Positions 3,501-63,300 of a stretch of 64,000 nucleotides of DNA are shown piece by piece. Under the pieces are notes generated by a model that was given only the letters and a program-made list of their open reading frames with translations, did not search any database and was not told the DNA's origin. This DNA comes from Arbacia lixula. Taxonomy: Eukaryota; Echinodermata; Echinoidea; Arbacioida; Arbaciidae. Numbering within the stretch: the stretch's first letter is position 1; each line of letters opens with the position of its first letter. A program made the position numbers and the translations under genes. The stretch is taken from contig OZ022581.1 in NCBI GenBank assembly GCA_963669155.1, positions 17,687,027-17,751,026 on the forward strand, written 5' to 3'.

Positions 3501-5605
3501 CCAGTTAGCAAAATTTTACCTAAAATACGTTAATTTCCTGATTGTGTCAAAAGAAGATTTTCAGTCTTATTTTCTCATCGGTTATTGCTGATACCTCTGA
3601 AAAAAGCTAAATGACAAGCCTGCCAGAGAATATATTTTCGCTGCTTTGCAGAAGCCTTTAAAATGACAACAATATATAAGTTATAAGCAGAAGTGTTTCT
3701 CCCTGTCATATTATGACTTAATGAAGTGAAATTGGAACTGAGAACTGTTCACAATTGCCCCAGCAAAAATAACTACTGAACTATAAAATAAGTAATTTGA
3801 TCAAAATAATAGGCTGATTTGAAATAGTGTATACAATATCAATCTTTTAATCTTTGGCTCAATAAAATGATTGATCAAAACATGATCAACATCTTACAAA
3901 ATTTTATTGTCAGTATAAGCCCATGTTTGTAATAATTGTGCACCTCAAAATTATGATAAATCAGTGAAGATTCATGAAAGTCTTCTTGATATATTCCACT
4001 TTTATGCATAGCAGATTTCTGTGGCAGACTTGTATTGGCCCTGTGTTTCTTTGTGGAACATCATGTAACACTTATAACAGCATATCTGAAAACCAACAAA
4101 ACAGCACAAAACTCACAAAACACTTTCATATTTATCATGCTTTAATATCTGACAAAGATATTGCTTTCCTGAATCAAGCAATGGGTAGCATTGCATGTTC
4201 ATATTTACATGGAACCAAAAAGATGTCTCATCTTGAAGGAGTTTTCTTTTGGATTGAATGCTCATGATCTTTAATCAAGTAAGATTGGTGGTTTTGAGAT
4301 TGGTGGTTTTGAGATACGCCAAGTGTTACACCATGATTCCAGTTGAAATCTCAGACTCGGTTTGCCATGTATGTGCTGACGAAGCCAAACGGTCACAAGA
4401 AGAACGGAGGAACAGGATGGAACTCGATTACAGTGACATGCATTTCGTTTAACCCTCTCAGTACCAAGCAAGGAAGATGTCATTTGCTTTGTACACATGT
4501 GTGTTCCATAGGTAATGAAAGGGTTAACAACCAGGGCCTGACACGCTGGCACCCTTTTCACAAGGTCCCATTGTGCTATGGGCAGTTGTGGGAATCCATC
4601 AAATCTCATGCAAACAGAGAAGATCGTTGCACGTTGGAGCTGCCAGCATGTTTTAATGAGGTACCCTGTGGACAATGTCCTCTAGCAACATTTGAGGATT
4701 GCCCCCTTGCAAGGGAGCTGCTTCTTTGCAACAGAAATAAACTTGTGCAAATCCATGCCAGCAAAAAATAATATGAAATCAAACTCAGACACAAAGTTTT
4801 ATCACAAGTTTTTAAGTGTGTGGAGTGAAGATAAAGAAAGTGATGCCATTCTGTAAAAAAAAAAAAAAAAAAAATCAAGTTGGTAACTGCAAACAGCAAA
4901 AGCTTCAATGTATTTTGACGGCATTTCTTAAACCTGTAAGAATCTAATCAGAGAGGAAAATTTGATTTTGTTGATCTGTGTTCTGATTTTGTTCTATGTC
5001 TTGACTAGATATTGATAGTTATATTTCATTGCCTAAAGATACACCTGAACTATCCAGTTGGCTCCTTGAGTGCAACTTACACTCGAGATAAGGAAACATC
5101 ACTAGCAATCAAGTATACTACCCCAAAAAAAATAGCCCCATCATACCATACATTTTTGGAGTTGAAGTCAAGTTCATACTCATGACCTATTTGAGCACTT
5201 TTGTGATTCACACGTCTTCTCTAGAGGCAAAATCAAGTACCAGGTAAAATCATATTCAAATTGAAACCACAAAATCATTATCTTTTAAGGAAGACAACTG
5301 AAGTGTGCTCTTTGTATCCCACTGAAATATTTGGGAAGATTCATAACCCAAGTACTTTAGAGAGAATGTGCAGCCTACACTACAGCTCAAAGGAATTGGC
5401 ACAGGGAAATGGAAAGGGAAGTTCCTGCAGTTTTAAACCACGGTATATTTTGTCCAGTTCAGCATGAAACATCCTTCCCTATCCCTATGCCAATTCCTTT
5501 GAGCTTTAGTGTATGTTACTATTTTTGCAGTACATCTCCCCATTGTGCAAGTACACTCAGAGACATACAGCGCCGAGGAAGACACAGAGCAGGTGGGAGG
5601 GGGAT

Positions 5606-22493: not shown

Positions 22494-25400
22494 CTGTCGG
22501 TGCACGGGGGAAAGGGGAAAAAAGGTTATGTCCAATACAGGAATAGTGGCCATTTAAAGACATTCAACAGTGAATAGTATATGGATGAATAATATATGTA
22601 TGCTTTGCGGGGCTTATACATTAATGGAATATGGAATGGTGGTCATTAAAAGATATTCTGCAATCTTTCAACACAAGGTGAAATGTATTTGGATCAATAC
22701 AAATTTGATTCTATGCAGGCTTATACACACAAAATGGTGATCATTAGAAGACATTCCACCATTTGCCAACACGGGGTAAAATTGTAAGTGGATCAATAAA
22801 AATTGTATGCTTTGCACGGCTTGTATAACGCAGAATGGCGGTCATCAACAGGAACCCATATCTATATGGTATCTAACTAGGAACGTCATCTTGTGCTGGA
22901 TTTGGATGTCTACAGTGCAGGAACATTGCAGTCTAATGCACCAGGTAGAGAGATGGCTGGATGAAGATATGCAGAAACGGAGGAGCTTGCCTACATTCTT
23001 CCAGACCATACCTGTCTCATGGCGGTGAGGAATCCCTGTGGGTTGAAGAAGCCGGTCATCCAGAAGGTGTTGGGGCGGCCCTCGAAGCACCAGGCGTGGA
23101 ACTGCTTGTTGCGGTCAAGCAGCTCCGTGAACCAAAAGCCCAGGGTGGACGATGCCCAGGAGATCTTGCTCCAGGTGACCGGGATGCGGCCGTCAAACAT
23201 GCTGTCCAGCGCATCACGCAGGTTCTCGTTCATGATGATGGTGCCGTCAATGGCCAGCTTGAGGTCGGTCAGGGTGGCTCTCACCAGCGAGATGACCCGC
23301 TGCATGCGGTCAATCTCCTGCCGCAGGAAGATGTTCATGGGCATGAGCGCTCCCATGCGCTGGAGCCGCTCCCGCACCTCGAAGGGGCTGTAGTCTGCAG
23401 GCAGCTTGTCCAGCATGTCGTCAGCCATGCGGGTCACTGTCACCTCACGTGTCTCACCACCTCCACTCCCGCTGTCCTTAGGCTGGATGCTCAGGATGGT
23501 GCCCAGTACTGTTTTGGCCGTGTTACTTTGGTACCTGGGTAGCAGCAAAAGAATATATGACGTAAATGCTGGATATGTAGTACAAATGTTTTGTCATAAT
23601 ACAGTGTGAAAGGGAAGACTAGTGATAAATAGCAGTTTAAGATGATTTAAAGATGCCACTAAAGGCCACATGCATTTAATGCCTTTTCAGCATTTTCATC
23701 AAGGAGAAACTCTAAGCACCACTTACGTAATATCTGCGTTAGGATGCAGTCCAAATGCTTCAGGTGTGTCGGCCAGCGGCAGGCTGTTGATGTACTCGGT
23801 ATACTGGAGAGGGTTGGTGCACCTCGGGATGGCATAGCCTTTGTAGAAGACAAAGTTTGGGTGAAACATGGCCTCGCTGAACCACACCTTGGCGAAGGTG
23901 TTCAGGAGGCGCTTGTCGTAATCATCAGTCACACGGCCTCCATACTGGATCTCACCGATCATGTAGCGAACCGTCGACCACGACACACCCTTCTTGATGT
24001 CCATGTCATCCAAGTGATTCTGCATAGAATGAGGAGAGAATCAGTTTTACGGCCTCTTCTGAATAAAGCTGATGCCTTACATACACTATTGTACATCATG
24101 ACATTCGAGCTGCATAGCGCTTGCAAATGAATGCAATGCACTTTCATGGAAATTCTACATAACTCTCGTACACAATCTAGTGAGTCTTTTATGTTCTGAA
24201 ATGACATGTGAAGAGTGACAGTCATTTTGACACTATGGTTAAAAGATAAGTTTAGTGGTCCACTCTCACCACATTCTCTAAGGCATAAACTACAACATTC
24301 TTCTACCAGTCCACATTATTTAGGAAACACAACAAAATGTAATGAGGTTCGACAAACAATTTCATGAAAGACGGAGGTGGCAGGGGCATGTCATACCTGC
24401 ATGAACTGGACGGTGGAGCTGAAGTCTGCTGCATTGAACTCATAGGGGATGTTCCAGCCGAGGGGGCCAAACTTGCGCCTCTCCTGGACTGTGGTGTGGA
24501 GGAAGGCAGTAGCATACAGCATGGGCTTCCACTGAGGCATGTTGGAGACGTCTAGCTGGTCCTGGCTGATGCCTGCATAGGTCCGCTTCAGCCCTGCCTT
24601 GATTCCTTGTGGAGGCTCGTTGGTGAACTTGATGCACATCTACAATGGGGCAGAGAAACAAGCATTACGATGGACATTTGAGATGCTTAAAATATGACAT
24701 TTCATATTTGCTCATTTGTGAACTTGATGATGAACTTGATCTACAATGGGGCATGAAAAGAAGCATTCAGATTGGCATTTCAGATATTTCATGATTGCTC
24801 CTTCATGAACTTGGTGAGAAAAGAGACTATGATTGTTATGTAAGACTGGCTGGATCTGGAGGAATCTAATTCATTTGATACACATCTGACACGATCCAGA
24901 CAATATAGCAATTTGCAATGAATGGGTCTGGCTGCAGTAGCCTAACCATTCTCAATTTCTTACTGGTCTTATGAATACTAGACTCTGTTTTCAAAGTATG
25001 AATTAGACATGCCCAAAAGCCTGTAAGCCATGCTCCATTGCCAGCAGCACAGAAAGGGAAGGGCACTGACCTGCAGCAAGCTGATAGGGAAACTCTTGTG
25101 GACCTCTGTGGTCATCCAAAGCCGGAAGTCTTCATGGATGGTCTCTGTCTCCACCACGGTGTCCATCAGCTCCCCCAAGAAGTCCAGCGACAAGTGGCAG
25201 TTCTGCAGCAGCACCCAGCCTCCCTGAAGGTCAACATCAAGGTCAAGGATAAACACTCTGTTTATGTCCTGGAGGGCGTTTCATGAACATTTTTCGTCTG
25301 ACAAGCTGTCTTTTTCTGACAGTTACCATAGTAACAGTCAGAGGCTAGTGCCTCTCAGCCAATCAAAACCGAGGATTTCATTGAAGCTGTCAGCACAGAC

Positions 25401-28400
25401 CATTTGGTCAGTGCTGGCAACGTTCATGAAACGCCCTCCTGAACTGCATTGTTGTAACAATCTCAAGATGTAAACTTTTGATTTGAATGCATAATTAAAC
25501 AAAAATAATTACCTCTAAATAATAAGCTCCAAATGCATTGCAAATGTCATGACTATTTTCAAAGATACCAAACTCTAACATCAACAAAAGGTGAAATCCT
25601 ATTTTACCTTCGATATTACAAAATCAAATTAGTTTGCAGATGAGCGTTTCCATGGTAACTACATGAATTGTGAGTTACGCAGCTACTCACGTTGGTCATG
25701 AACTGCTGCATGAGGCGGCGTGCATGCACCTCCTGGCCCTGCCCCATGGAGATAGAGCGGCAGTCAAACTTCCTCTTCTTGGCCAGTCCTTCGATCATGT
25801 TGGTGGGGTCGGAGCCCATGGACAGGAAGCAGATCAGTGGGTTGCGGGGGTCTGACTCCTCAAAGGTCTGCTCCAGATCCAGGATCACTCCCTCAGCGTA
25901 CCGGTCACCCATGGAGTCCGCTGCAGTCCAGAGAAGGGGTCGGAGGAAAAAATGTATCTTTTAAGTCAAGTTCTTCAATTCTGCAGAAGGGCTTTATAAC
26001 CCATGACTTCCACATAAACTTATCAGACAATGTACATGCACCAGCACTGCACCTCAATATTACAAATCATTGTGAATTGTGACTGAAGATCTAAATATCC
26101 CAGGTTCAAGCCCCCTATGGCGCATGAGCCCTTCAGCAAGATACTTTATCCATATTACTGCTCTCCACACAGGAGTATAGATGGGTACCTGATAGGAGGT
26201 GGACAATTATGTAAATGATCTTGACCCAGCAGTGATCTCGTGCAGCGGGCAGGGAGTGGAGATGGTGCACATATGTGTGCATGATATGTTCTTGTATCCC
26301 GCAATCAGTGCTCTAATTGTCACATCACTCATTTCAGTCTCCAGACATCAAAATGGGCAAGAGCCTCTACACCATATACAAAAAAATGTGCTTTATCTTC
26401 CCAGCTCTCACCGATGTACTTGCGAGCCTGTGCCAGGGTGCGGTCAGGGCACCAGGACCGGATGAGCAGCAGCTTGCGGAAGACGTCCAGGGACTGGTGG
26501 TAGCCGTCCGGGATGGCCTCCTCCTCGGGAGCCTCTCGGTCAAACCAATGCTTCCACTGCTTCTCGTTGCGGCTGACCTGGTTGATGATCTCAGTGAAGT
26601 GCTTCAGCTTGCGCACCTCCACCAGGTTCAGCCACGTGATATCCAGGATCCACTTGGACGGCTTCGGAGGGCAGGTGTTGAGGTCAAGGGTCGCACCACC
26701 TAGGTTTGGGAGATGGAGAGATTGGATTGACATCACATTTCTATAAATGAACAGAACATGCAAAATAACAATATATATACACACACACCAGTTGATTACT
26801 GAAAAAGTATTTCCAGATGCACTGATGAGTATACTTTATCAACAATATAAGTCAATGAGTATGACCTCAGTTACAAACATATCAATTATAAAAAAAAAAG
26901 AGTACATCTCTCCAGACAGTTAAAGGGGAGTGTGAAGAGAAAATAAGTTAAAGCCTTAAAATGTATGCACACAAATGGACTGTCATGACCAACTGACCTT
27001 TGATGAGGGTCATGAATTCTTCATGCTTGACCTTTCCTCCCTGGAGGTCAATCTTGAGGGTCAGCAGCAGGGTGAACATGAATTTGTCTGCCTCGTACAG
27101 CCCCCTGGCTGCATACTTGAAGACGGCAAACGTCATGTAGTCAATGATGTTGGCTATACGCTTGCTGGTGATGGGACTCTTGGTTGAGCTGTTCACAACA
27201 AAGAAGAAAATCACTTTAAACTATTCAATCAAATTGTGTGAATACAAGCATTGAAGCACCTTCAGCTTTCACTATGAGAGAGCTAGGCTAGGGAAGGAAA
27301 ACTTCAGCTACACAGCATGTTTTTTTTAATTGTTTCTCCTGAATTTTGTTTGGATAATGACATTACAATCAATATTAGTGCATGTGTTACACACAAATGT
27401 GTTGCTTCTTTCATGCTCACTTGAAAGAAATGTGAAAATTACAAATTTTTGGTTCACATAAATAATTTCTTACCTAAAACTAATCGTCTACGAGTAGCCC
27501 TTTTGAAATGATTTGGCGTTCATACAACATACAAACAATAATGATCGATGCAGAGAATTAACAGACAAATAATGTAATCAAGATGACAATGCTTCATTAT
27601 TCACACTGACAGACTGACAGACTGACAGACAGACATAAAAAACAAACATATGTGTACTCACTTTGCCATGGAGAGGTCAAAGATGCCCAGGAACTGCTTG
27701 AGAGATGTTTGGTACATGACATTGACCATGCTCATCTCTGTGATCAAGAAGTAGAGAATACTGCCTCGGGTCGCAACTACAGTGGGGAAAGAAGAGATAT
27801 CACAATAAGGATTGAATCAAGTCAATTTGTCTTTATCCTCCACTTGTTTCTTCTCCTCCTCATCTTCTTCTTCTCCATCTCATTTCCTCCTCCACTAACT
27901 CTACTCCTCCTCCTCACCCTTTCTTCTTTCTTCTCCTCCTCATCACTGGTATTACCCGAGTCATACTTAACACCATTATCATAAAGCGTTATCTCTATGA
28001 TCAATGCAATCATTTTCCGTGTCAACACAAGAGAACTCTTGGACGAACCTGGCCTAAACTCCTCTCTGGCCGTGTTGATCTTGACCTCTGTCTCCGCAGC
28101 AATCTGCAGCTTCTGACTGACCTCCTCGGCCGTTGTCTTGGTGATCTGCAGCACGGTGATGAGTGACTCGTCGTCCACGAGGGAGCCCTGCGTGGAGGTG
28201 AGACGGTAGAGCAGGTTGTCTTCTAGCTCCTTCATCTTGCGCTTGTTGGCTGTCACATCCTCCACCAGCTTGGTGCGCTCAGCCTCCAGCTCCTGGGGAC
28301 AAGTGGGGGAGTTTGAAAGTCAATAGATAAGTTTTCTCAATTAAGCTGCAAACGAACCACTTTGGAAACTCGACAATTGTTATTGCTAGCCGTCAAGAAA

Positions 28401-31400
28401 TATGCCTCTGCCTCCAGCTTCTGGTGGGAGATGGGGGAATTTTGAAAGTCAATAACTTATCTCAGTAGTGATTGTACTTCTTACTGTCTTTGGTGTAAAT
28501 TGGTTTATTCCATTTTCATTTTACAAACATGTTTATTAATGCTTCAACCAAGTTTTCTTATTTTTTCTGGATATGACAAAGATATGTTTCTGGCAAAGTT
28601 CAAAGTTCAAAGCCCTTTGAACGTCAAACTCTTATGGAATTGGCCTGACATCTCAAAGCTCTGCCCCTTCCCCACATGACCCCGGTACTTACGCTCTTCT
28701 CTGTCAGGATGACCCTGCCCAGCAGCTGGTCCTCTAGACCCTTCATGGTGACAGTGAAGTCAATGATGGATGTCTTGGCACTGATCTCCGGGGTGTAGGC
28801 TGGGTTGGGCAGCTTGGTGGTGATGTAGAGCCGGAAGCCATCCATCACATCCACCTCCTTGTCACCCACTTTCACCTGAGAGTACCAACATGGAGGAATG
28901 TTAGTCTCTTAAAGACCCTCTGGCCCTTATTTCTTACATGCTACGTACGACTACTTAGTACTCTGCAATAAATAACATACATTTAGTGCCTAATACCATT
29001 CCGTCAATACCAGTCATTTGTAACTATCTATACATTCAAGCGCAGGCTAAAGCGCAGCCTAATCGACGCATATCGCACACTTCCCGATGCTTAGTTTATT
29101 TTCTCCTCAAGTATGCCCTTCACCATTAACTCCCCCCCTCCTTTACGGCACTTTGATTTAATAAATGTATACATCTTTATGTAATCTCATATATTGTAAC
29201 GGGGAGCCTATAACCCTACAAGCTTCGCTTTTTTATAGGCTCCTCCCCACATTGTTATATGTTATCAATTTTCTGTTATTGAAGTGTACAAGCAGTCATT
29301 TAATATTGTTTTCGGTATGCATTCTATTTACCTTGTTAATGTCCCTCTTTATTTATCTGTATATGCATGTGAACGTATCATTTCATGTACCTGTACATTG
29401 TATGTTTATGGTTATATGTTTATATGTGGAAATAAATTCAATTCAAAATTCAATTCAATTCCAGGCAATGAGCTTACATGAAACTATTCTGAATGAAGGA
29501 GTTAACTCTTTATATTCTGTTGTTGCATTTTAGGAGCAGCAATACACATGAGACACACAGAGCTGCATTCTCTGTCACGACAAGGGTTAACTCTCACCTT
29601 GAAGGTGCTGCCACTCTTGATGTAGTTCTTCTCCAGGACGTTGTCCAGGGCGGGGTCAAGCTCCTCTCCCACATCCTCTATCAGTAGAGGGCGTCCTAGG
29701 GACAGGCAGTCCTCCAGGTGGGTGCGGAAGTACTTGTGGTTCAGCGACGTGACCTGGGGAGGAACAGTGGGGATTGGCAATATATTGATATCAATGATAT
29801 GTCCAGCCAGGTTCAGCCTAAATCTGTATATCATGTTGAACAACAGGTACGCTACCGTAAAGATTACAAACCAGTTCATGGATATCAAGACTCATTACAT
29901 TGATTCAAGATGGTCACTCTGCCACTTGCATGTAACAGGATTTTGTTTATGTTTGATTCTCTCTCTCCCTCCCTCTCTTTATCTCAAGTTTGTCTTTCTA
30001 TTCATTTCCCTCCTCCCCTCTTTCACTCTCTAAATTACTCCATCTCCTGCTCTCGTCATTCTCCCTTTTTCAACCTTCTCTTCTCTCTTATTGTCCCTCC
30101 CAATCCCAAACTCTCCATCCTTTCATCTCCCTCTGCATCTATTAAGCCTCATCTCTCCTGACCTGCATCTCGTTGGCAGCCTCCCTGTTCTTGATCCAGA
30201 TCTTGCCCTGGCCCTGAGGGTCGACCAGGAGAGGGAAGCGGGAGGCCTTAGTGACGATGATACCGTTCTGAATAGACAGCTCGTCGTTAGGCAGACCCTG
30301 TAGATTCCACTCAGCAATCTGGCAAGTGGAGAAAACACAACAAGAGAATGCTTATGTTTTCAATGAAATGTGTGTGGTTACAGAAAGCAGTGAATTAGTT
30401 AACCTGTTGATGTGTATTTTTGTGCAGTGTATTCTTTGGCGTTTGCTTTTTAGGACAGTGTCTAATAATAAAACTTACACAATTACTTGTGTAACAGTGG
30501 AGCTTTTAACCCTCACTTCAATGAGGATGATGATTTTCATGAAATCCTTCATCTAGTGCAGGTTCTTTCATTCTACACAAAGAATGTATTGCATAAACAA
30601 ACTCAAACATGATCTTCACTTACTGTAGTGCTATCAATCAGCATCTAAATGAAGCTTGATTGGTGTATATGTTTTCATGCTTGTTTTGAAAAGAAGCACT
30701 GAATTATCTAAATCGATCTCGACTCACGGTTGTGTTGTCAACCAGCATCTCGATGAGATTGAGGTTGGCTGTGAAGGGGATCTTCCTGGTCTTCATCTCT
30801 TTCTGCCAGTCCTTGAGCAGCTTACTCCGGAACTCCTGGTTGAAGGGGCCAGAGTAGGACAGGAAGCCTGTAGCCATCAGGACGTCACCAACCAGTCTAA
30901 GGGGTAGGACATCACGAGGGTTAGAATATATAGGCAAAGCTAACTTGGGGCTTATAGACAAAAGGCACCATCTGCCAGGACATATATCATCATTTCTTTT
31001 TTTTTAATCTGAGCAATGAAGTATAATTCGAAAGAAAAAAATTGAAGGAAGACCTGATAAAATGAAAAATTATGAAAGACAAGATAAAGAAGTAAAATTA
31101 AATGGGGAGAAGAGGAAGAAGAAATAAGAGAAAAGGGAAGGAGTAAACGTAAGCACAAACAGGTGGTGGGTTGCTAGGTGCACAAGTGTCTACTGACCTG
31201 CCAATCTGAGCCTTGAACTCCTTGTTAGCCTGTGTCCATCTCTCTTTCTCCCCTCCCAGACCACTGATCAGGGTGGAGGCAGCCTCCATCTTACGCCGGC
31301 AGTTCTCTGCATCATCCAGCAGATCCTGAGCAGAAGCAAACAGGGTAGGAGAGAATGAGTTCATGTATCCATGGAGACAGTTTGCTAGCAGTGCGTGACA

Positions 31401-33230
31401 CATCATCAAGCCTACTTGCTGATTTGCATAATTTCATCTCGCCAGCAAGGCACTCAACTGCTATCTTGTTATCATTACAAGGCTACACGAAGTCAACATT
31501 TCTGTTCTTACTTTACTCTACTAAGAGCAAAATACAGGCTGGGGACATGAAGCTGTGAACATCAAGATAGCAGTCATACATGTCAGCTGAACAGGAAATG
31601 AATGTAGGAATGGAAATGGAGCGGTGTAGCGGGATCAATGTTCCTCTCATTCTCGATCAGGGGAGAAAGGGTTTGAACCAGGCAGCTGCCACTTATGTCC
31701 TTCAGCCAGATGCTGAATCCATCCACATAGCTGCTCCCTACCTAGCTATAAGAGCAATAGGTGCCTGGGAGGATCCATTGGTCCAGTCACTATCATCGCA
31801 ATAACTTGGGGCCTCTGTAGAAATCAGGGTGCCCATTAGAGAGGCTGCGCTGTATAACTAAGACCTTCAGAACATCATGATCCTTACCTGTTTCTTCTTC
31901 ATGGCAGCGTCATACTCTGCCTGAGCCTCGTCCAGCTCTGCCTGCTTGGCGTCCAGCTGGGCCTGGGCCTTGGCCAGGTCATTGTTGGCTGCGGTCAGCC
32001 TCGCCTCTTGGATCGCAAGGTTCGCCTGGTCCACAACAGAGAGCAAGAGGTCAAAGGTCATTGTAGAATACAGAACAATTTTTTTTTTTTTAGTCAAAGC
32101 AAAGACAAGATATGATAAGAATGGAATCTGCACGCTGAAACATGCACATACTACTTCTATTAAAGATTTGGCATGAGTCGGACCGAAGATAAGACAAGAT
32201 ATTTTGATTTACTTCAGTCGTAGGTTATTCATAGAATGAGTTTCTTGGTGATCAAAATATTGCTCATTAATTGTACAGTCCTGGTACTGATAGTGTGTTA
32301 CATTCAAAGAACTCATTATTACGTTTTACTGATGAGTTAGCCTATGAAAGATAAATATTGATACATCTGTTCATTGTCCATGGTCTCACAAATTGTGCAA
32401 TGAAATGGACAAAGTTAAGACCTACCTTGAGTGGCAGAACCTCCCTGTTGATGTCATAGAAGAAAGCCATGGCCTTGGTCCATGAACACAGACCAGCCAC
32501 GTCACCGCACACCTGGAGGGGATCAAAGAGGTCAAAGGTTGTGTGAGTGAGAAGAGCAATCCATAGAAGGACATTACAACACAGTCACAATAAACCCTTG
32601 ATTGATACTCAGGCAAACAAGCTTTCTTAAAAGAATATGATGCATACATGGTTGGGAAATAGGGAATGTGCATTAGCACTCGACATAATGGTACCCATTA
32701 TAATTGCATAACAGTTTTACAAGATATTTTGATAGCTGGATTAAAGGTTTGGGTTAAAGGGGATGTCTGGCAGTGATGATGTTTCATAGCACAACTGTTC
32801 TGCCATGTTTAGATTGTTTCTATCTTAGATAACAATTACATAATGTCAAAGTTTCTACACATGAAGGGTTCCTAGGTGAGAGTGAAAGGTAAAATCACAT
32901 AAAAACTCTCTTAGTCCTAGAAATGCTCCTTACCTTCTTGGCATTCTCCAGGTTGAAGTCGTCCATCTTGAGGTATGGCTCCAGCAGCTCCACAGTCTCT
33001 CCATTGATGGAGTCCTTGGGGAAGGACAGGAGTCCCTGCAGGAACCCAGCTCCACCCATCAACTGAAGGGAGGGAGAGAGAGTGACGATACGAACAATAG
33101 CAGTGATTAATTGCACGGTGCAACAATAGGTATGATTACAACTATTACATATATGTTACAACTCGTCATATCTCCTGCAAGACACCAGCTTCACCCATCA
33201 ACTGTGGGAGGAGAGAGAGAGGAGAGAGAG

Positions 33231-33264
<34 letters not shown>

Positions 33265-33282
33265 GGGAGAGAGAGAGAGAGA

Positions 33283-33328
<46 letters not shown>

Positions 33329-36300: not shown

Positions 36301-39300
36301 AGCAATATTGTGTCTCGCCCACTTGCGAAAATAACCAGAAATATCGCGATCTCCGTTGCTACGCAAAAGAAAACTGAAACAAAGAAATAAGCAACTTTAA
36401 ACAGACAACATCAAAATCAGGTGCAAAATAGTGACTTTGAATAAATTTGCATAAATGTGCATGAGTAATGTTTGCCTAAATCTACATCAGTAATGCTCAC
36501 ACATGCTCACACAATTCTGTGCACAAGTTAGGAAGCCTTCACCAAGAGTCTTGCAAGTAAACTTTAATGTATGACCTCAAATGACCTTTGACCTTATCAT
36601 GTGACCTCTTACAGCACAATAACATGCAGGTGCCCCCAGTGCATCCATCATCCAAGTTTGATTGCCATTGTAGCAACATGTGATGAGTTATGTGTGATAA
36701 GAGAGTCTTGCAAGTTAACTTTAACGTATGACCTCAAATGACCTTTGACCTTATCCTGTGACCTCCAACGGTACCATAACATGAAGGTACCCCCAGTACA
36801 TCTATGACCCAAGTTAGGTTGTAATCCAAGCAACCTATGTGAAGTTATTTGTCAAAAGAGAGTCTTGCAGGTAAACTTTAACGTATGACCTCAAATGACC
36901 TTTGACCTTATCCTGTGACCTCCAACAGCACCATAACATGTAGGTACCCCCAGTGTATCTATGACCCAAGTTAGGTTGTAATCCAAGCAACCCATGTGAA
37001 GTTATTTGTCAAAAGAGAGTCTTGCAGGTAAACTTTAACGTATGACCTCAAATGACCTTTGACCTTATCCTGTGACCTCCAACGCCACCATAACATGAAG
37101 GTACCCCCAGTGCATCTATGACCCAAGTTAGGTTGTAATCCAAGCAACCCATGTGAAGTTATTTGTCAAAAGAGAGTCTTGCAGGTAAACTTTAACGTAT
37201 GACCTCAAATGACCTTTGACCTTATCCTGTGACCTCCAACAGCACCATAACATGAAGGTACCCCCAGTGCATCTATGACCCAAGTTAGGTTGTAATCCAA
37301 GCAACCCATGTGAAGTTATTTGTCAAAAGAGAGTCTTGCAGGTAAACTTTAACGTATGACCTTAAATGACCTTTGACCTTATCCTGTGACCTCCAACAGC
37401 ACCATAACATGAAGGTACCCCCAGTGCATCTATGACCCAAGTTAGGTTGTAATCCAAGCAACCTATGTGAAGTTATTTGTCAAAAGAGAGTCTTGCAGGT
37501 AAACTTTAACATTTGTGACGGACGACGGACGACGGACGACGGACGACGGACGGACGACGGACGGACGACGGACGGACGACGGACGGACGACGGACGGACG
37601 ACGGACGGACGCCATTTGGATCCCTTAGTCTCGCCTTCACCTCCGGTGGGCGAGACAATAAAAGGACTCTTCACTTCCGGGAACAAAAATGACAAGATTT
37701 TGAGATTTTGTGATATACAATACAATAGAGTTATGGAAATATTGTGCAGAAGAATAAAATTCAGGAATGGTGAAGTCTTACAATGTCACTGTCACATTGT
37801 AGCACAACTAAAACACACAAATCCTACAGAGCAACACATCATAGCGCATAGATGGGACTAAGGAACTCACAGGAGAGAAGCAGAGTACGACGTGGAGGTT
37901 CTGTCTAGACCTGGTGATGAAGTAGTCGTAGAGGTTCTCTCCTGTCGGTGGTCGCCGTGGATACTCCCTCTTCATGATAGGGATCAGCTCCTGCTGAATC
38001 TCATCAATCTCATCACGGGCAAACAGGTTTGACACCTGCAGGGGAGGAGAGAAGGGGGAAGGGGAATTCAGGGTGTTGTACACTTTAATTTTATATTTAT
38101 AATATTTACAATGTTACAGTTAATATAATAAATCTGTAATTTAGCTTTCATGGTTTTTTTATTTTGTCTATCATATCTTATTTATTGCAAAACTTTATGC
38201 AATTCAGCCCTTGGCCATGATTTTTTTTTCTAATCAATAAAGATACCTTTGAATCAATCAATCAAAATCATCATTTACAATGTCTTGACACCTGCATGGA
38301 AGACAGGATAGGAAGAAATCATTGATGCATAGTAATGAAAAATCAAGCTTTCTATTTTGTACAGATACCTGCAAAAGTATATGAGACATCTGTAAATACC
38401 AGTAAATATTGGTCCATATATTTCAGTTCACAAGGAACACTTGTTTATAGGTTCATAATGAAGTCACACGAGCGTCAATGAATCCACATTAAAATAGCTC
38501 CTATAATCACTAATAGAAAAATAGATCATATTATATTGCATTGGTTGACTTTTTTTCCCCCTCCTGATCATTCCCTTTCTTCCTACCTCAGGTAAGAAAG
38601 CCATCAATGACACAGGCCATGGGCACTATGATATATTGTGGGGCTATTTTGAAAGCCCAATGACTGACCTCTCCTGAGGACAGGACATTGTTGAGGTACT
38701 CCAGAAAGCTCTCATCCTTGATCTCATTGTCAGTGAAGATGAAAGTGATGCCCTTGCCCTGCTGACCAGCCACACGGTACAGCGTCTTTAGGTCCTCCAT
38801 CAGGTTGGAGGTGTTGTACGATCTGCTCAGAGGGAGGGGATGGGAGACCAGGGTTATTCAGATATAATCATTATTTACCGCGGATAAAATCTTTAATTAC
38901 AATGAATTTGCTTATATCTATTTGTTTTGTTATCTTGTTTGAGCATTCATATTGTTCATATACGTTGTTTGATATATTGTATGTAATGTTATATGTGATA
39001 TGTACAAACACATGAATTTTATACTGTGTCCACTGTAGAACTTTGCTATAAATGACAAATGGGGAGCTATATGCAACATGGCTCAGAAATGTTCTCCTCC
39101 AAAGGCTTGACAGCCAACCATTTTTTTCAAACTGAGCACAATCACTGTGCTCTGATATCCATAAAATGATTCATGATTTTTTCCTCCAATAGGAAGCATA
39201 GTTAATGGACAGTTGATTTTGTTTGAAGTTCACCTGGTGAGCGTGATCTGGAATGTCTTGTAGCCAGCGATGAATGAAGCCAGGCGGGTCAAGCTCTGCT

Positions 39301-45300: not shown

Positions 45301-48300
45301 GAAGTCAAACATGGTTTGGTCAGATACATCACACATCTGGACACTTGTGCTCAAACAGACACACACACACTCATACACATTCCTACACACCCAAACTCAG
45401 ACACACAGACACAGACAAACAGAGGAACACCTACCATCATTATCCACAAAGAAGTCAAACATGGTTCGGTCTGAGCCTTCAGGGATCTCTGGGACATTGA
45501 GCTTGATCTCATCCCGGTTAGCGCGGATGAAAGCCTCCATCTTAGAGCGGTCATCCAGCTCCAGCAGGGCTCCGATGCTCCACATGGTGCAGAAGATGTA
45601 GATCTTCTCCAGGTGGTCCGGGGACAGCCCCTGCGCCTCCTTGTCATCCTTCTTGGGGATCATCCCCTTCAGCAGGTTGATGCACTACAGAGAGGAGGGG
45701 GGGGGGGGGGAGGAACAGGGGCATGCATTAACACCAGGAAAACATTGAACAATTATTTGGTGGGGCTACTTTTCAACCCTGATATCATGAAACCTGGGGG
45801 GCAATTCGTGAAAATTGTCAGCAGTGTTTTAAGAGTTAGTGCCAACAAATTCAGTGAAATCCTCAGTTTTGATTGGTTGGATGCACTAGCCTCTGACTCT
45901 TACGATGGTAACTGTCAGAAAAAGACAACTTGTCAGTGCTGACAACTTTCATGAAATGCCCCCCTGATGTCCTGCATCCTGTTTTGCAATGTGATCTGCA
46001 AGTATTTTTTTTTTCACAAGGGCTCTTTTGGAATTTATGGGGCTCATTTCTGCTTTTAAGGGGATAAATCATGTTTAAACATCGCTCTACAAAAGTTGCA
46101 CTTACACTTGTGCTGTATTCATTGTTCTAAGGTGCATTGCTGTTTTTGTCATATTGCCAATTGTTACGATACTTGAACAGCCAAATGTGAAATGTTGTAC
46201 AGGATTGGCAAGTAAATAGAAACTCACTTGGCTGATGATCATGCACTCCAAGACATTCATCTTAAAGATCAGGTTCTGAGTGGCGTACTGTAAGATGGCA
46301 GCAAAGGACCTCTCAAACAGGTTGCGCAGCGTCTCGGCCTCGGACAGGTTCCTGCTCATCAACCAACCCTGAAAGCAAACAAAAGCATTGTCTCATATTT
46401 ATCTTCTCATTTCATGAACATAGGAACATAAGAGAGACTTCCCATCATACTTGAAACTGATTGCAGAACTGCCCTATTCTGACAAAAGGAAGCAACTAAC
46501 AAAAGAGACTTAAATAAGCAAAATGTATCTGTCACTTGCATTGGCATCAGTCCAACACCATATCATGTTAGATTGAATATCTCGCAGCAAGATTAATATT
46601 TCTTGTTCAGATTTTGGCTGTATGTAGGGAATGCTGGGTACAATCTAAGAATACCAATAAGCCAGAATTGAGTGATTTGTCACCTGCTTCCTTTTGTTAG
46701 AAAAGGGCAGAGAACAGCTCCATGCATTTGTGTAGCGATTGACTGCACTAACTTGGAATCATTTGCATTCAAGTGGGCAATCTGGCTCAGGCTCCACTGT
46801 TTGGTATTAATCTATCCCATCCATGCATGTGTAACATCTCTCTCTTTTAATAATACAATAAATGTATCGTAGCACCATTATGTTAGTGCATTATTAAATG
46901 ACAGTGAAAATTAGTATATGTTTTAAAGGTAGGGGGTAATAGTGGTAACAGATGTGGGACTCGTAATTAATGCAGTGCTGTTCAGCCATGACCATCAAGG
47001 GCCCCATTCTTGGTTAATTTCAGGAGACCTGGGCCCCGTTGCATAAAGCTAACCATTAATGGTAACTTTACCATCAATGGTAACTACCATGGTAACATCG
47101 CTCAACAGCCAATCAAATTAAAGGTTTCTATGGAAGTTGACATTGGTACCAAAATTACCATCAATGGTAATTTTTATGCAACAGGGCCCAGGAAGGAATC
47201 ATCTGAAAATGATGATAGTTGAAATGAAACTGAATATAACCACAGTGATGGCAAAAGCCAGTATTCATCACCACTACTACCCTTCTGTGATTAAGTTGTA
47301 ACAGTGGCATTGCCTGCTAAATGACCCCAGGCTCCCTTATATCTCCTTCTCAACTTGCACATTACCTCCACGATAGGCTTCCAGTCCAGGGCAGAGCTGC
47401 TCATGTAGACCATGCCGTTGCGGGAGACGGTTGCCGGGGAGGCGTTGTCGATGTTGTGGGGCTCAAAGACCACCTTGCAGAGGGGCGCCATGGGGATGCG
47501 ATCCCCGTTGGCCAGGGTCAGGGTCTTGTTGTCGTCCAACACGCTGTTGAGGTTCTCGATCCAGATGGCATCCACAGGACCATCAAGGATAATCCAGATA
47601 TGCTCACCTGGGAAGACGTTAAATGGACAAATCAGAAGAATGATAGTGACCACAACAATGTTGACCATGATAGTAATCATTATTTCTTATTTACCCAAAT
47701 GGCTGATGATAACGATATCATGAAATGATACCATATGACAATTGCCAATTTTCACATGGCCTCTTCCATTTTAGAGGGCTATTTCAATCATTGCAGGGGT
47801 TCAATACAAGTGAACTATGAAAAAAGAAATGTATTTTTTTTTTTATGGTTCCCATTGTAACAAGAGTTTTTTTGTTTTTAATAGAAGTGTCGTACCCTGT
47901 GACATACATAATCATGTAGTGCCACAACTCTTTGTCCTGAACTCTTTCTACGAGCTTCATGAAAGAGGTTACCGGTGCTAATACACCACAGGGTGTGAAG
48001 GAGGTCATGACGCACCTTTCTTGGCCCTGAGGGTGCGCCTCCACAGGGTGGAGAAGATACCATCGGTCCAGTCGTTGGTGGCCACGTCCAGCCGGCCGAA
48101 CATCTGTGGCGCGGTGATAGCCTTAGGGTTCATCCTCATCTCCTTGTGGGGTGCGCCGCAGTCTGTCATGGCCTTCATCAGGTTGTGGATGCAGCAGGTC
48201 TTGCCCGCACCGCTCGGCCCAAGCGCCATCATGCCGTGACGCACACGCTGCGTCTCAAACAGCTGCAATGGAAAAAAGAAAAAAAGGTCAGTAGGTTTAC

Positions 48301-51300: not shown

Positions 51301-54300
51301 GTGTATGTCTACAAAGTGCCATTTTTCTTGAAAATTAATTTCACAGATGACAGCTGAAATGCAGACCGTCATACCTGTCAGTGAGCGGGGTAATGACAAG
51401 GCGCTCTGTGCACCCAAGGAACTCGTTCTGGTAGATGAAGTCGACGTCAGTGATGGAGACGATCATCTTGTCGTTGTCCTCATTGAAGTAGAAGCGGCAT
51501 TGCTTGAGCCACTCAAAGTCTGCGGGAGACTTGATGTGCATCCGCACCTAATGGAGGAGGAAAAGATGGAGGTTTCAGGAGTTAGTATCACTTCATGTTT
51601 CATGAGCAGATTTGGGGAAGAACCTCCCAGATGGAGTCAATGTAACTATGACCGTGACAGTGACTCTGTTTACATCCTTATATCACTATTATTCAGGGTG
51701 AACTAGATCCATTAGCAGAATTGTGGAAGAGTCTTCCATAGTGATTCAAGAACTTCCAACTCTTTTGAGAGGTCTACAATATTTGTAACGCTTTCATCTG
51801 AAATGGTCAAACTTACAAGTCATTGATACATGTTGATTATCATTATATTTTCTCAATTTTGTGAATGACACAAAATGGTCAAATCTTCAAAATTTAATCA
51901 ACCACTCTAGGACAAATTAACTATGAATCACAAACTGACCAGGTCATCAAAGATGTCCCTCTGGTGGACGTGGATGGTGATGAGGGTCTCAAACTTGCGG
52001 CGCTCCACCTTGGTGAGGTTGCGAGTGGTTTGGGCGATGAGGAGGTTGAGTAGCTCCAGGAAGCCCTGGTTGGTCTGCTGCATGACCTTCCGGTCATACT
52101 TGGCGTTGGTCAGCGCCTCCTGGGCATCACGCGTCCAGATCATCTGGATCCCCAGCAGCCCAATCTGAGACAGGGATAGAATAGATGGTGAGTTTTGATT
52201 TTAAGGTTCAAATTGGGATCATGAGTGGGATCAGGATTGGCATTGGTATTGGTATTGGTATTGGTATTGGTATTGGAAGTGGTATTGGAAGTGGTACTGG
52301 GATTGGCATTCCAAATTTGACTAAATGATCAGATCGTTTTGATGCCCAGTAGCTCAATCTTTGGCCTTGGTATTAAATTAATAATGTTACTTGGTGTCTG
52401 GATCGTCAGATCGCCAGCATCAGTATCATTTCCATCAGGATTTGAATTTATACTGGTATCAGTCTTGTCATCGCTACTGGTTCTCACTCATAGAGGTAAT
52501 GATATCAGAATAGGTATTGGTCTCATCAGTAACTGGTATCAGTGTTGTTACTAAACTAATACAGGAATCACTACCAACTCTCTTATATACATTGATACAC
52601 ATATCCATCTTATTACTATGTATTGGAATCAGTGCCATTGTATCATCATTGTCTTGTCATTGGTACTATTCCTTACATGGTCCTGGTAGGTGTTGAGAAA
52701 CTGGTATGGATAGTGGTATAGGCATTTTTTTGGTGGTGGTATCAGTCCCAGTATTTGTATTGATACAGGTATCCATCCTGTCACTGGTACTGGAATCAGT
52801 GCCAGTGCATCAACAATTCATACGGTCATTTGGTACTAACCTGAGCCTGGTAGGTGTTGAGGAACTCAATGATCTCAAGGCTAGAGTCCTGGACGGCGCT
52901 AGAGGCAGTACGGATGACGCTGTGCAGTGAGCGCTGGGCCAGCACCATCAGCTGCATCAACCACACCTCCACATTACCGGACGCCAGCACAGGCTTGTCC
53001 AGCTATGAACCATAGAGGGAGTATCGGTGGGTAACAGTTAGAAGAGCGCAAGGACACAACAGTCATAGACTAAATGTCTGTAAAAAAAAACCCTAAGTGA
53101 ATCACTTCAGAGTACTTGCATGAGCTTGCATTTGTGTACCACCTGTCTATTAAGACCCTTGGGGTGGTCTTTATGGACAGATTTCACTGTACCAATTACC
53201 AATGATGGCTATGGTCAGTAATATTCATCATCACATGAAGATTTGAACTCTTGACATGCTATCAATCTAACAAACACAGATAAGATGGAGAAGCAGGTTT
53301 TCTTGCGCACAAAGGGTTAATGGCAGTGACTCCACATACTCTCCATAAAGTGCCTCTTCCATTTGAGTGACATAAGAAGTTACAAGACTGACCTCAACCA
53401 CCTCGCCCTCCGAGGAGATGATGGCCAGGATGCGATCGTAGTCCTTCTCATGGAAGCGGACAGACTTTGTGTTGTCGAAGATGGAGAGGAGGTGGGCCTG
53501 GATGGTGTGTGAGTCAGAGGCCTGGCCAAGAATCTCAAGCAGGGCAGGGTCAGACACGAAGAAGAACCGTGGGAAGAGAAGACGCTTCTTCTCCAGGTAC
53601 CTGGGGAGTGCCGTACAAAGACGAAATACAGGGTTTAAAATGAAAAATAGCAGAATTTACCCCAATTGAATTGAACTTCAAACCTAAAATTAAGAAAGTT
53701 ATATGGGGAATCAAGTATTACCAACATAAAGGAAAGGGTTCCAACAGCTGTAATGCTGTAATTAATAAAACTGAACCATCTGTTTCCATGGTACTGATTC
53801 ATCTGAACAGAGGGGGGAAAAACAAATATTTTGGGTATTTTTTTCTTCAAGTTTTCAAACAAAACATTAAACCTTGCTAAGCATTATACCCATAAGTATA
53901 AAGTTCAACATTTTCACAGGGAAGCTTTGGGGTATTTAGGGGGCTACAGTGCAATAAACTGTGTATTTTTGGTTCACTGTATAAGCAATTTTAACCCATT
54001 GCTTACAATAAGATTTCTTGCTTTGCGCACCCTGCTCTAGTTAAGATGTCGCAAATTTGCCATGGAACTGCAGTAACCAAAGGGATGTTTTCTATAGGGA
54101 ATTTAGGAGTTTATTCATAGCCCGTCGTCTATTGCTCAAGCAGTAGAATGTATGGGAGTCCGGTTGATAAGTATCTGAGTTGTGAGTTCTTTTGGTTGAG
54201 TTCTTACCCAGTGAGAGACTTCTGGCAGAGCTCTAGCTGCTCCAGGAGATGAGGCAGGAGCTGACCCATGGTCTCATCCCCCACGCAGCACTGCACCACG

Positions 54301-57300
54301 TTGGTGTTCTCATGGGCACGCACCATGATCTTCACCCAAGACTTGTCAATGTTGCTGAACCGCTTGGCTTCCTGGAGATCAAACACAAACAACAGGCATA
54401 TCAATCTTTGCCCCCCATGATCACGATCACAACCACAATCAAAAAATGATCTCTCCTCTTTTTACCCTCTCTTTATTCACCCCAAAATTGGGTCAAATAA
54501 TAACAACACAGCACTTCCAAATGTTGTATTATTTTCTAAATAGTTTTTATTAGTAAATAGCACACTAGTCACAATTTCTTGATATCATTTCCAGGAACAC
54601 AAGACAATAACAATATACCAAATAAGAAATAACGATCACAGTGACTAAAACGCACTGAACACACAGTGCTTATCTACGTCTGTGAAGGCCAAAAAATAAA
54701 AAATATTCTTTAAAATCATTCATGCCGATGCAAAACAAAAACAACCTTACATATACATTTACATATACAATTTTTATACAGATACATTTCAAATCCCATC
54801 TTTAAAGAATAAGAAGAGCCAAAGAAATTTGATAATCATCACCCTTATCATCACTATCGCTATTGTTTTTGTTATTAACATTATCATCATTGCCATTATC
54901 ATTATTACTATGATTATCATCATTGCTAGCATTGTATGTGTGACCTCTAACCTTTGGCAGCTGTTTGGCGATGTCTCTGGCAATGTCTCCGCTCACTGTC
55001 GCTATTTTTTTTTTGTTATTAACATTATCATCATTGTCATTATCATTATTATTATGATTATTATCATTGCTAGCATGGTATGTGTGACCTCTAACCTTTG
55101 GCAGCTGTTTGGCGATGTCTCCGCCCACGAAGACAGCCTCGAGGTAGACCCAGAGGTTCTGGACCTGCATCCACTGCTCAATGATCTCACTGGTATTGGA
55201 CAGGTTCTGCACCCACTGCTGAATGTTCTTCTTGAACGGGGCGTTATATCTGGTGGACACACAAAACAGACCAATCATTACAAATTGTGAAGACTGACTT
55301 ACAGAAATAATCCCTAATTGAAACTTTAAAGTCCCCTGCCTGCAAAACTTTATATTTGACTTCTGACTTGGACCTTTATCTGTGATATACATATACTTTG
55401 ACTTTTCACATATCATTTCTTATTCAAAACAATGTTCCTTTGTACCAAATTTAATTGTATAAATTTTTATTTAAAGATCATTAACCATAAAAATTAAGAC
55501 TTTTATCGTTGGACTTCATCATATCTGACCTGAAATTCGATTGATTATAGCGATTGTCCTGTGACGTGTTACCTTTGGATCAAGCTGATCAAGTTCTGTC
55601 CAAGGATTTAAGGATTCAACTTTGACCCTTGACCTGTGTGACCCATAAGGGAAAATGTTACCTGTTACTCATGAGGGAGCCGAGCACCATGAGGCTGTCC
55701 TCCATAAGGCCGATGATCTCGGTGGTGTTGTCTCCTCTCAGCAGCAGCTCTCCGCGGTTCTTGAAGTTACCAAATGTGAGGTCCCGGGCACTCCACTCAG
55801 CGACAGTGGCCTTCAGTTTGGCCTCGATATCCTTCTCCTTCACAGCAGATATGCAAATGTCCTACAAACACAATGGGATGATTTGATTTGAATTGAATTG
55901 AATTGAATGGGTTTGTGCATGTCTTGTACAATAGAAAGAATAGATCATCACATCCTTCAGTTTGGCTTTGATGTATTTCTCTTAGATCCTCGATACAGAC
56001 TAAGATAATACAATTGATTACCATAAAAATAACAAAAGGTCATTGTTATTCTTATTTGTAATTCAATGCAGGAGAATCTTATAACAATAATAGAAAAGAA
56101 AGGTTCTAAAATTGGAATATGGATATCATAATCTTAACTCACATTGGAATAAAAGTTATATCGGATGTTCAAGTTTCACTTTAACCTTTTGCCTGAAAAC
56201 TCACATTGATGTTTATCTCCCTCCCTTTCTCTTTCCCTTTTTTCTTTTATGTCTCTGTCTCTATATCCCTCTTTGTTTGGAGCTCTCTGTCCAATCTTCC
56301 TCTCTCCTCCCTTCCATCATTTTCCTCACCTCAATATCCTCCTTATTCTGCAGCAGTTGTGTCTCAATGATGTTGCACAGACTAAAGGATTCCTCCTCTA
56401 TCAATGTCTCTCTGTATTCCCCTTCCCCCCTTCCTTCTCTCACCACCCTCTCTCTAATTCTCCCCCCCCCCCACCCCCATCCTCCTCACCTCAATATCCT
56501 CCTTATTCTGCAGCAGCGGTGCCTCCATGTTGCATAGACTAAAGGATTCCTCCTCTGTCAATGTCTCCCTGTATTCCCCCTTTCCCCCTTCCTTCTCTCA
56601 CCACCCTCTCTCTAATTCTCCCCCCCTGCCCCCACCCTCCTCACCTCAATATCCTCCTTTTTCTGCAGCAGTGGTGCTTCTATGATGCTGCACAGACTAA
56701 AGGATTCCTCCTCTGTCAATGTCTCCCTGTATTCCCCTTTCCCACCTCCCTTCTCTCACCACCCTCTCTCTAACCCCCCCCCCCCCCACCCTCACCCTCA
56801 TCTTCCTCACCTCAATATCCTCCTTATTCTGCAGCAGCGGTGCCTCCATGATGTTGCATAGACTAAAGGACTCCTCCTATGTCTTTGTCTCCCTGTATTC
56901 CCCCTTTCCCTCCTTCCTTCTCTCACCACCCTCTCTCGAATTCTCCACCCCCCCCCCCCTACCCTCCTTCTCCTCACCTCAATATCCTCCTTATTCTGCA
57001 GCAGTGGTGCATCCATGATGTTGCACAGACTGAAGGATTCCTCCTCTATCAATGTCTCCCTGTATTCCCCCTTCCTTCTCTCACCACCCTCTCTCTTATT
57101 CTCCCACCCTCTCTCTAATTCTCCCCCCCCCCCCCGCCCCACCCTCATCCTCCTCATCCTTCTCACCTCAATATCCTCCTTATTCTGCAGCAGTGGTGCT
57201 TCCATGATGTTGCGCAGGCAGAAGGACTCATTCTCCACCTCAAAGACATGTCCAGTGGTATCGGCCATGCGTTGCCAATGACGTGGCTTCATGGCCTTGT

Positions 57301-60300: not shown

Positions 60301-63300
60301 GGTGAGTTAAACCATCAAATCAATGCAAAACCCAGAGCACCACTATCAAACCCAACCAAGACAGAATGCATGCAGACGCACCTGTTCTGGAACTCAATCA
60401 GCTCATTGTTGATCTTCTCAATGTCCACGTCCTGCCAGAGGATGTCGTAGTACCCGTTGACGCGGTCGATGACATCGTTGTAGAGGCCGTAGAGCTTCTG
60501 GAGCAGGTTGAGCTCCTTCTTGATGACCAGGAGCTCAGGGTACTCCGTCACAGGGAGCCCAAACAGCTCCTCCCCACCCGTGTAGGTGATGAACTTACGG
60601 TAGAGGTTGTCAAAGTGGTTCTGGTAGATAAGGAGACGGTCGCTGGCCTCCTTGGGCGGCAGGCCTGTTACCATTGGCCCGGACTGGAAGGGGAGAGGGA
60701 TGAATAGACACTGGTGTGTTACCACTGCTAGGGTGCTACAAACCTACTGATGTGACAGCCAGGGATGTGTGACATAGATGGGGAATACTACAACAGCCAG
60801 TAGTCTCTGTTGCATAGAGTTTTCTGCTACTGTAAAGTGTGACTTCACATTTACAAAGATGCCATCATATTATGTTTCCCATTAGTACATGACCACACAA
60901 CCAAAAGAAATGACTCACCTTGCAGTATGAGGTGTAAAAGTTGTTACATTTAAAAAGACGCCACAATTAAACAAAGAATAACAATTAAATAAAATCTAAT
61001 GCTAAATTGCACAGGTGTGCACCAAAAAGAAATCACTCACCTCACGATACGACGAGTAGAAGTTGTCGCAGTCCTGAATGAATGTCTGGACGTTCTCCAG
61101 TAGGTTGCCCCTGAAGTTGGGCTGGATGGTGAGCAGGTGGTGTGAGGTGACCGAGGCCTGGGACGTCAGCTTGGCCCAGCTGTAGCGCAGAGTGTCCACA
61201 CGCTCTACATCCTCCTTCGCCACCAGCAGCTCATACTTGTTTAGCAGAGCGTATGATTCCTACAAGGGGACAGAAACACAATTATTGAGCAAATTCAATG
61301 ACAAAGGGGGAGAAATGCAATCGCCCAAGAGGACATGATTCTGTGGTGAGATCTTGTAGCATTTCTATTACTCATATTACTATTAAATCATGATTCTCAA
61401 CACTGTGGAAAAGGCACAAAATCATTCAACAGGGCAAAATTGTTTGGCTAGCACATGTACTACTCCTGCTATTACTGCCAGTGCTTTAGTTTACACAATG
61501 CTGGCAGAAATGGATGTGTACAATTTGTACAATATAGAATCAATGTACTTCAATCACAACTGCTTATAAAGACTGCCTCAATGGAAACAGAAAATACAGT
61601 ATTTGTGAAGAGGTGGTCTTCATAGTCATGAACAGTTACATGTTTACTGCTCTGAAGGGAGTCAAGTGGTCATCATAGACAAGAGAGTTTGTCCACAGGG
61701 TTGACGGTACAATTATAATTCAGACATCTACGATAAAGACATTTGTTTTACAATGTTAAACAATGTTACAATGTCAAAATGATGACTACCTATCAAATCT
61801 CCAAGTTACAACTCTTTACCATTACTACCACTTCCACTACTACCCAAGCATTACTCGCCCCTCACCTCAATGGGTCCGATGGCCATGTCGATGCGGATCT
61901 CGTTCTCCCGGACGTCCTTGAGGGCCTTCATGACCATACGGATGTCGTCCAGGTCCTTGATGGGGCGGCTCAGCTTCTTGTTGATGTCGTCGATGAACTC
62001 AATGATCTCATCCATCATGGTGCGGTACTTCTCGTTGCAGGCCTTGCCGTACGCCACACACCAAGCCTTGGTCTCCGTCGTCAGCGACATCTTTTCAATT
62101 CAATTCAATTCAATTCAATTTTATTGCAATCAAAATGTGCTTTGCAGCACAAAGCTGACTTGGACATAGATAGCTGGCAATGTTTTGAGGCAGGAATTCA
62201 AATTTCTATTTAGCTAAATGCAAAATGTTTTGTATTTGTGTGCTTTTGAGTTTCATTGAAAAAAAAATGTTTTAATGAGGCCAGAAAAGAGCAAGCATAC
62301 CACCACAACAAAAATAGTTGGAAGGTGCTTACACGTTCTCACCATCCATGAAAATACTACAATAGTTCATCATTACAACAGATAATTTTAGACTATTTCA
62401 TAATAACCAAAGCCCCAGGAAAAACACTGATGGGGCTACTCTGAATAAATATAGCTTTTTTTAAAAGAAATGAATAAATAACTCCATAAATATGAAAATT
62501 AACATACATTAATGGTAAGATGAAGCACACATACCTTGAGCATTTCTGTATAGAGAGCAATGGCACCAACATTGTAGAACTCTGGCTCAGCCAAGATGGC
62601 CTCCTCCAGCTCTCGGTAGTGGACGATGGTTGACTGGAAGTCGCTCAGCTTGGGCTGCTGGCTCAGGAACTCCTGCACCGTCTCCTCCCGCTCCTTCTGC
62701 CAGATCGGGTGGTAGCAGGCAAAGCGCTCCAGGGCCGTGATTACCTCCTGGGAGCCGAGGGAGAAGGAAGACATCCAAACATTGTTAAACCTTTTTTTCA
62801 ATCATTTACAAGATGAGCTTGTGATCTTTATCACTGGGAGCAGCAGGGGAGAGGAGGAAATCCAAACATTGTGACAACTCATTTACTTTTTGGGAGCAAG
62901 GATGTGATCTTTATTACTGGGAGCAAGCAAATTTGATTTTCTGCATGAAATTCCCCCCAAGGAAGATTCTTTTCATAAGTGGTAACTTGTCCCAACAAAG
63001 TTGATTAAGTTTGAGATTTCCCCTCTCTTCCACAGGAAATAACAGGAATTTGCAAACATTTTGATTGGTTTACGCAACTGGGAATTGATTAATTCTTATC
63101 TAATGACTTTCCGGATGGGGTGGTAGCACTAAAGGAGCTGTGATTGCTTATAGGACTTGTGGAATACATCTTATGTTGAAACATGCTCTGGGAGAAGAAA
63201 TCCTTCAAGGGAGTAAAGGCAGACCAATCAGAGAAACATACTGACTACATTTTGAGAAATATGATGAGAGAAATTTGAAACTCTGAACAAGACAATGCCC

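Follow-up and report, generated by a model that had tools for sequence, protein, structure and literature searches.

Tandem copies of exon-intron boundaries at many exons of a dynein heavy chain gene in the sea urchin Arbacia lixula

The window analysed here is a stretch of 64,000 nucleotides of Arbacia lixula (assembly GCA_963669155.1, contig OZ022581.1, positions 17,687,027 to 17,751,026), and it carries on its minus strand a gene for an axonemal dynein heavy chain of the DNAH5/8 type, with 55 exons in the window. We find that at 14 of these exons a short piece of exonic sequence is repeated in the adjoining intron. The copies are very probably mirages, as tandem duplications of exon-intron boundaries are called in amphioxus, that is, short tandem duplications that arose at random positions and have decayed neutrally since. 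The observation is thus a true one, of a known kind, and an unusually rich example in one gene. An earlier note, made from the sequence alone, had named 16 exons; besides the 14 that hold, exon 3 stands in part only, and exon 33 falls to chance level.

The gene model was obtained by parsing splice sites and codon use with self-trained parameters, and the parsed protein was compared in three pieces with solved structures in the PDB. Human DNAH5 (8j07_n0) is the top match for all three pieces, over residues ~1065-4624, followed closely by 9fqr_I3, whose entry label is CFAP57 and which is a dynein by alignment. Judged by these protein matches, the gene is an orthologue of DNAH5/8, the two being left undivided here. 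The parse initially proposed 69 exons, 14 of which have no counterpart in human DNAH5. Their removal leaves 55, in agreement with the exon count and numbering of the earlier note, and the exon set without the copies matches human DNAH5. Nine of the 14 surplus exons are intronic copies lying in frame with the dynein protein, the parse being blind to copies. The gene continues past the window edge with its 5′ part, and for the first exon seen here the 5′ edge is unconfirmed. All coordinates below are window positions.

22107 to 64000, minus strand: DNAH5/8-type dynein heavy chain gene (parse, human DNAH5 match, Dynein_C)

The copies are far above chance. A gapped self-comparison of the 42-kb locus, at offsets of 30-600 bp and with simple repeats masked, gives 49 alignments at a score of at least 15, against a mean of 2.7 (maximum 6) in 15 control comparisons of the locus with rotated copies of itself; at a score of at least 16 there are 46, against a control mean of 1.3 (maximum 3). 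The 49 are raw alignments, many of which share one array; an earlier version of the self-comparison, with 3211 alignments, was inflated by array redundancy and was replaced. In a separate test of exon edges, the terminal 80 nt at either end of an exon were compared with as much as 500 nt of the adjoining intron, the gene's other introns serving as the null. Measured against 5008 control scores, 12 of the 108 junctions pass the 99.9% quantile, where 0.1 are expected, and 15 pass the 99% quantile, where 1.1 are expected.

The 49 alignments divide into 16 that overlap an exon on one side, one that does so on both (score 15.0) and 32 confined to introns; purely intronic tandem duplications are thus also present, as the earlier note had said. 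The 16 one-sided alignments represent 12 exons. Exons 8 and 9, which lie outside the scan, come in addition from separate alignments. Exon 9 was missed on account of microsatellite masking. Exon 8 is not stopped by the entropy filter, and its loss probably stems from the score tail of the exon 7 array.

Donor-side copies are found at eight exons (5, 7, 9, 12, 23, 28, 29 and 42) and acceptor-side copies at six (8, 13, 27, 38, 46 and 52). Most copies lie at offsets of 101-241 bp, one copy of exon 27 at 351 bp, and identities range from 72 to 95%: the exon 9 copy is the freshest (95% over 127 positions), and that of exon 23 is among the most worn (72%). Donor-side copies lie downstream in the intron and acceptor-side copies upstream, which is where duplicating a junction in tandem has to put them if splicing continues to use the exon-proximal site. 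The alignment crosses the junction at exons 5, 7, 9, 12, 13, 23, 27, 29, 38, 42, 46 and 52, and at exon 28 with a deletion. Duplication was repeated at exon 7 (five copies) and at exons 27 and 29 (two each). The copies, with the partial case of exon 3, are as follows:

62834 to 62929, minus strand: copy of the last part of the intron preceding exon 3 (source 62748-62845, offset 86; includes the acceptor AG but lacks a clear exon part)
60898 to 60944, minus strand: copy of the exon 5 donor edge (source 61020-61066, offset 122; GTGAGT kept)
56285 to 57109, minus strand: array of the exon 7 donor edge in units of ~158 bp (source from 57235)
56977, 56810, 56644, 56489 and 56329, minus strand: GTGAGG copies in the exon 7 array (self-comparison)
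55954 to 55981, minus strand: copy of exon 8 sequence (source 55810-55837, offset 144; acceptor side, junction not visible)
54851 to 54977, minus strand: copy of the exon 9 donor edge and intron (source 54993-55121, offset 144, 95% identity; GTTAGA kept)
52584 to 52702, minus strand: copy of the exon 12 donor edge (source 52752-52866, offset 168; aligned GT now GA)
52330 to 52360, minus strand: copy of the exon 13 acceptor edge (source 52136-52166, offset 194; AG kept)
45260 to 45338, minus strand: copy of the exon 23 donor edge (source 45410-45488, offset 150; GT kept)
42761 to 42963, minus strand: two copies of the exon 27 acceptor edge (source ~42519-42613, offsets 241 and 351; AG in one, AA in the other)
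41614 to 41687, minus strand: copy spanning the exon 28 donor (source 41821-41849 and 41717-41764; ~58 nt including the donor deleted)
40760 to 40932, minus strand: two copies of the exon 29 donor edge (source ~40995-41056, offsets 113-120 and 233; GTAAGA in both)
33174 to 33210, minus strand: copy of the exon 38 acceptor edge (source 33035-33072, offset 139; AG kept)
30611 to 30659, minus strand: copy of the exon 42 donor edge (source 30715-30762, offset 104; GTAAGT)
28403 to 28454, minus strand: copy of the exon 46 acceptor edge (source 28274-28325, offset 128; AG kept)
24710 to 24785, minus strand: copy of the exon 52 acceptor edge (source 24615-24684, offset 101; AG kept)

The splice motifs listed in the earlier note, namely five GTGAGG at exon 7, GTAAGA twice at exon 29, GTGAGT at exon 5 and GTTAGA at exon 9, all appear in the alignments; the working donor of exon 7 is GTGAGA. 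The same note had set exons 8 and 28 apart as copies of exon interiors. At exon 28, the copy resumes in the intron past the donor after a gap of ~58 nt (chained score 22.9, against at most 12.0 in controls), which makes it a junction-spanning copy that lost its donor, and exon-interior copying was rejected as a class of its own; the exon 8 copy was not extended by chained alignment.

Individual cases differ in strength. For exon 5, the support is the whole alignment (score 22.8), the exon part alone being not significant (P=0.056); for exon 46, the exon part alone gives P=0.0056. At exon 3, a duplication of 86 bp takes in the end of the intron and goes no further than the AG, and the exon edge alone is weak (P=0.0016 as a single junction, ~0.17 over 108 junctions). 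The candidate copy of exon 33, with 18 nt, a score of 13.6 and an exon-edge P of 0.13, was rejected. The exon 9 copy is immediately preceded by another, partial one at 54964-54996 (offset 132), which suggests two rounds of duplication. Short similar stretches flank exon 30 at 40246-40662 (offset 382, score 16.7) and might trace a larger event. Intron 33 holds a purely intronic example at 36545-37611, where about six tandem units of 157 bp with 94% identity are followed by an array of an 11-mer (GACGGACGACG).

To decide whether the copies look functional, mismatches between exon and copy were counted by codon position. They number 22/156, 12/158 and 39/155 at positions 1, 2 and 3. This pattern is compatible with 1:1:2 (P=0.20), the ratio predicted for an unconstrained copy paired with an exon under constraint, and it departs from a third-position share of 75%, the assumption made for a pair of coding copies (P=6e-5). 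Of 14 visible alignments, 12 retain the splice dinucleotide when both exon 29 copies are included and exon 7 is counted once; with exon 29 likewise counted once, 11 of 13 retain it. Tested over these 13 alignments, splice dinucleotides have no significant advantage in retention over the bases around them (P=0.16 against the 0.68 expected from identity). Because both the codon-position mismatches and the dinucleotide retention fit neutral decay, the copies are most likely neutral.

That some copies are nevertheless used, as in-frame mini-exons or as alternative or decoy splice sites, would agree with the GT or AG kept in most of them and with the nine that a naive gene finder took as in-frame exons. 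However, the extra residues have no counterpart in human DNAH5, the two decay tests above fit neutrality, the exon 28 copy has no donor, and published mirages are reported not to disturb splicing. We consider such use quite improbable, and the role in splicing or as decoys that the earlier note had raised finds no support, unlike its third option, a neutral by-product of a high tandem-duplication rate. Taken by itself, the proposal that some in-frame copies, such as those of 24 nt at exon 12 and 21 nt at exon 42 or the 18-nt core within the exon 7 array, serve as optional mini-exons is unlikely; if it were true, mirages would be a source of protein variants and, in the longer run, of new exons and introns in the lineage.

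The number of copies at junctions can be weighed against random placement. For this purpose, the 32 intron-only alignments were reduced by hand to 14 loci by removing repeats of the same cluster or array, as well as the alignments at 63402 (offset 561), 54926 (microsatellite) and 32733 (score 15.0), giving 28 loci in all, 14 of them overlapping an exon. When the visible footprints are placed at random and exon-to-exon placements are redrawn, 11.7±2.5 exon-overlapping loci are expected, and 14 or more occur with P=0.24. A forward simulation, in which random tandem units arise, units inside or around whole exons are removed, and the remainder decay neutrally while exons are held, gives 11.0, 12.4 and 12.1 such loci for three age ranges. 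Donor and acceptor sides are similarly affected (8 and 6 exons), as in the simulation. The observed count therefore lies within the position-shuffled expectation, the outcome set beforehand as decisive against a preference for junctions, and that preference is given up. These results suggest that a junction mechanism is unnecessary and that a high rate of tandem duplication is enough.

We propose the following explanation. Tandem duplications of ~100-240 bp would fall at random across the gene, probably by slippage or unequal exchange. Where a unit contains an exon-intron boundary, the exon-proximal splice site would stay in use, presumably with no effect on splicing, while the second copy of the exon edge would become intronic, be tolerated and decay neutrally. 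Duplications internal to an exon would alter the protein and be removed by selection, leaving survivors that are intronic or junction-spanning. Moreover, since selection would hold the exon side of each pair, old duplications may stay visible longest there, although the raw identities give no support to this step. Recurrent tandem duplication with copies of differing age, as the earlier note had described it, is borne out.

Several points weigh against this explanation. With exon 7 left out, mismatches amount to 66/400 in the exon parts and 98/524 in the intron parts, a slight advantage for the exon side where a two-fold gap was predicted; the comparison is biased, in that local alignment truncates worn intron parts, but it lends the decay model no support. 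Furthermore, loci of all kinds are denser in the gene, with 28 in 41.8 kb, than in the 22 kb next to it, with 5 (P=0.017), and the locus counts are small and were collapsed by hand. The density difference would also suit duplication targeted to exon-intron junctions, for example by splicing- or transcription-coupled breaks, and the 14 of 28 loci that overlap exons lie slightly over the mean expectation. Nevertheless, neither the permutation nor the simulation with tolerance and decay calls for targeting, and the density of intron-only loci does not differ significantly between the gene and the neighbouring region (14 in 31.1 kb versus 5 in ~20 kb, P=0.35). We therefore regard targeting as very doubtful and retain random placement with neutral decay.

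For the neighbouring region, 12 alignments were reduced to 5 loci: four lay in open frames rich in Q, P and G, two at score 15.4 were dropped, and one pair was merged. Open frames of this composition lie on the minus strand at 224-613, 6863-8134 and 9880-11359 and belong to one or more neighbouring genes. Five of them were scanned against Pfam with no match at an E of 0.01, and the whole scan of seven pieces (six open frames outside exons and a dynein control) returned Dynein_C only, at 22994-23593. Also outside the dynein gene, a tandem duplication in two copies lies at 13009-13496, at offsets of 244-303 bp and with an identity of 89-93%.

Tandem copies might also come from misassembled heterozygous haplotypes. 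Near-identical cases such as exon 9 (95%) and the exon 7 array (~90%) could be collapsed or expanded in assembly, and an aberrantly assembled mirage is reported from a draft genome in the excerpted text of PMC3087553. Most copies, however, have identities of 72-87% and carry indels of their own, a divergence too great for duplicates of haplotypes, and repeats of this sort were confirmed by re-sequencing in lancelet PGBD5 (PMC3902484, in excerpt). An artefact is thus exceedingly improbable.

With a dozen boundary-spanning duplications of different ages in one gene, the birth and decay of copies become measurable, since the original sequence of every copy is preserved in its exon. The nine copies called as exons by a plain gene finder are a warning for annotation, and the idea of random placement, with a high duplication rate and no junction mechanism, is directly testable genome-wide.

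The earlier note knew of no description of such density in one gene. Its remark holds for the density at most, boundary-spanning tandem duplications as such being known as amphioxus mirages; in the literature searched, which left most subscription papers outside, we found neither a genome-wide count of mirages nor a gene with a comparable number of them. For boundary-spanning minisatellites, the founding case is reportedly that of the mirages in Adh3 of B. floridae and B. lanceolatum (Canestro et al. 2002), and like them the repeats described here span boundaries. As in mirages, the unit of a tandem direct repeat contains an exon-intron boundary (at 13 exons; at exon 8 it is not visible), 5′ and 3′ boundaries are both affected, and AG or GT is present in many but not all copies.

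The available excerpts of PMC3087553 and PMC3902484 describe mirages in amphioxus Adh3, globins and TnC and similar repeats in PGBD5, on both sides of boundaries and with unit sizes of 60-160 bp, and report normal splicing for several of them. For Adh3, units of 10-72 bp and somatic instability are cited in PMC3087553. The globin genes BflGb6 and BflGb9 have units of 150-160 and 157 bp, with identities of 81-100% among the BflGb6 repeats; AG or GT occurs in many, not all, globin copies, and the authors found no interference with splicing by RT-PCR (PMC3087553). Like these, our duplications span the boundary on the 5′ or 3′ side of exons; unlike these, which involve one boundary in each of two genes, they affect 14 exons of one long gene and include two-copy cases that are old and worn, with identity as low as 72%. 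Lancelet PGBD5 carries imperfect 60- and 108-bp tandem repeats over splice sites, one of them falsely annotated as an exon, in a paper that cites the Adh and TnC mirages (PMC3902484). The gene finder used here made the same mistake, whereas PGBD5 has two affected boundaries in one gene, with copy number varying between assemblies, against 14 exons in one sequence here. Finally, intron creation of the Rogers type was rejected on an anatomical argument, namely that the introns here lack flanking copies of the opposite exon. A tandem duplication that takes in splice signals is likewise involved in intron gain by tandem genomic duplication (PMC4974935, PMC2891723, both in excerpt); there, however, the duplication creates a new intron, while here it adds to existing ones.

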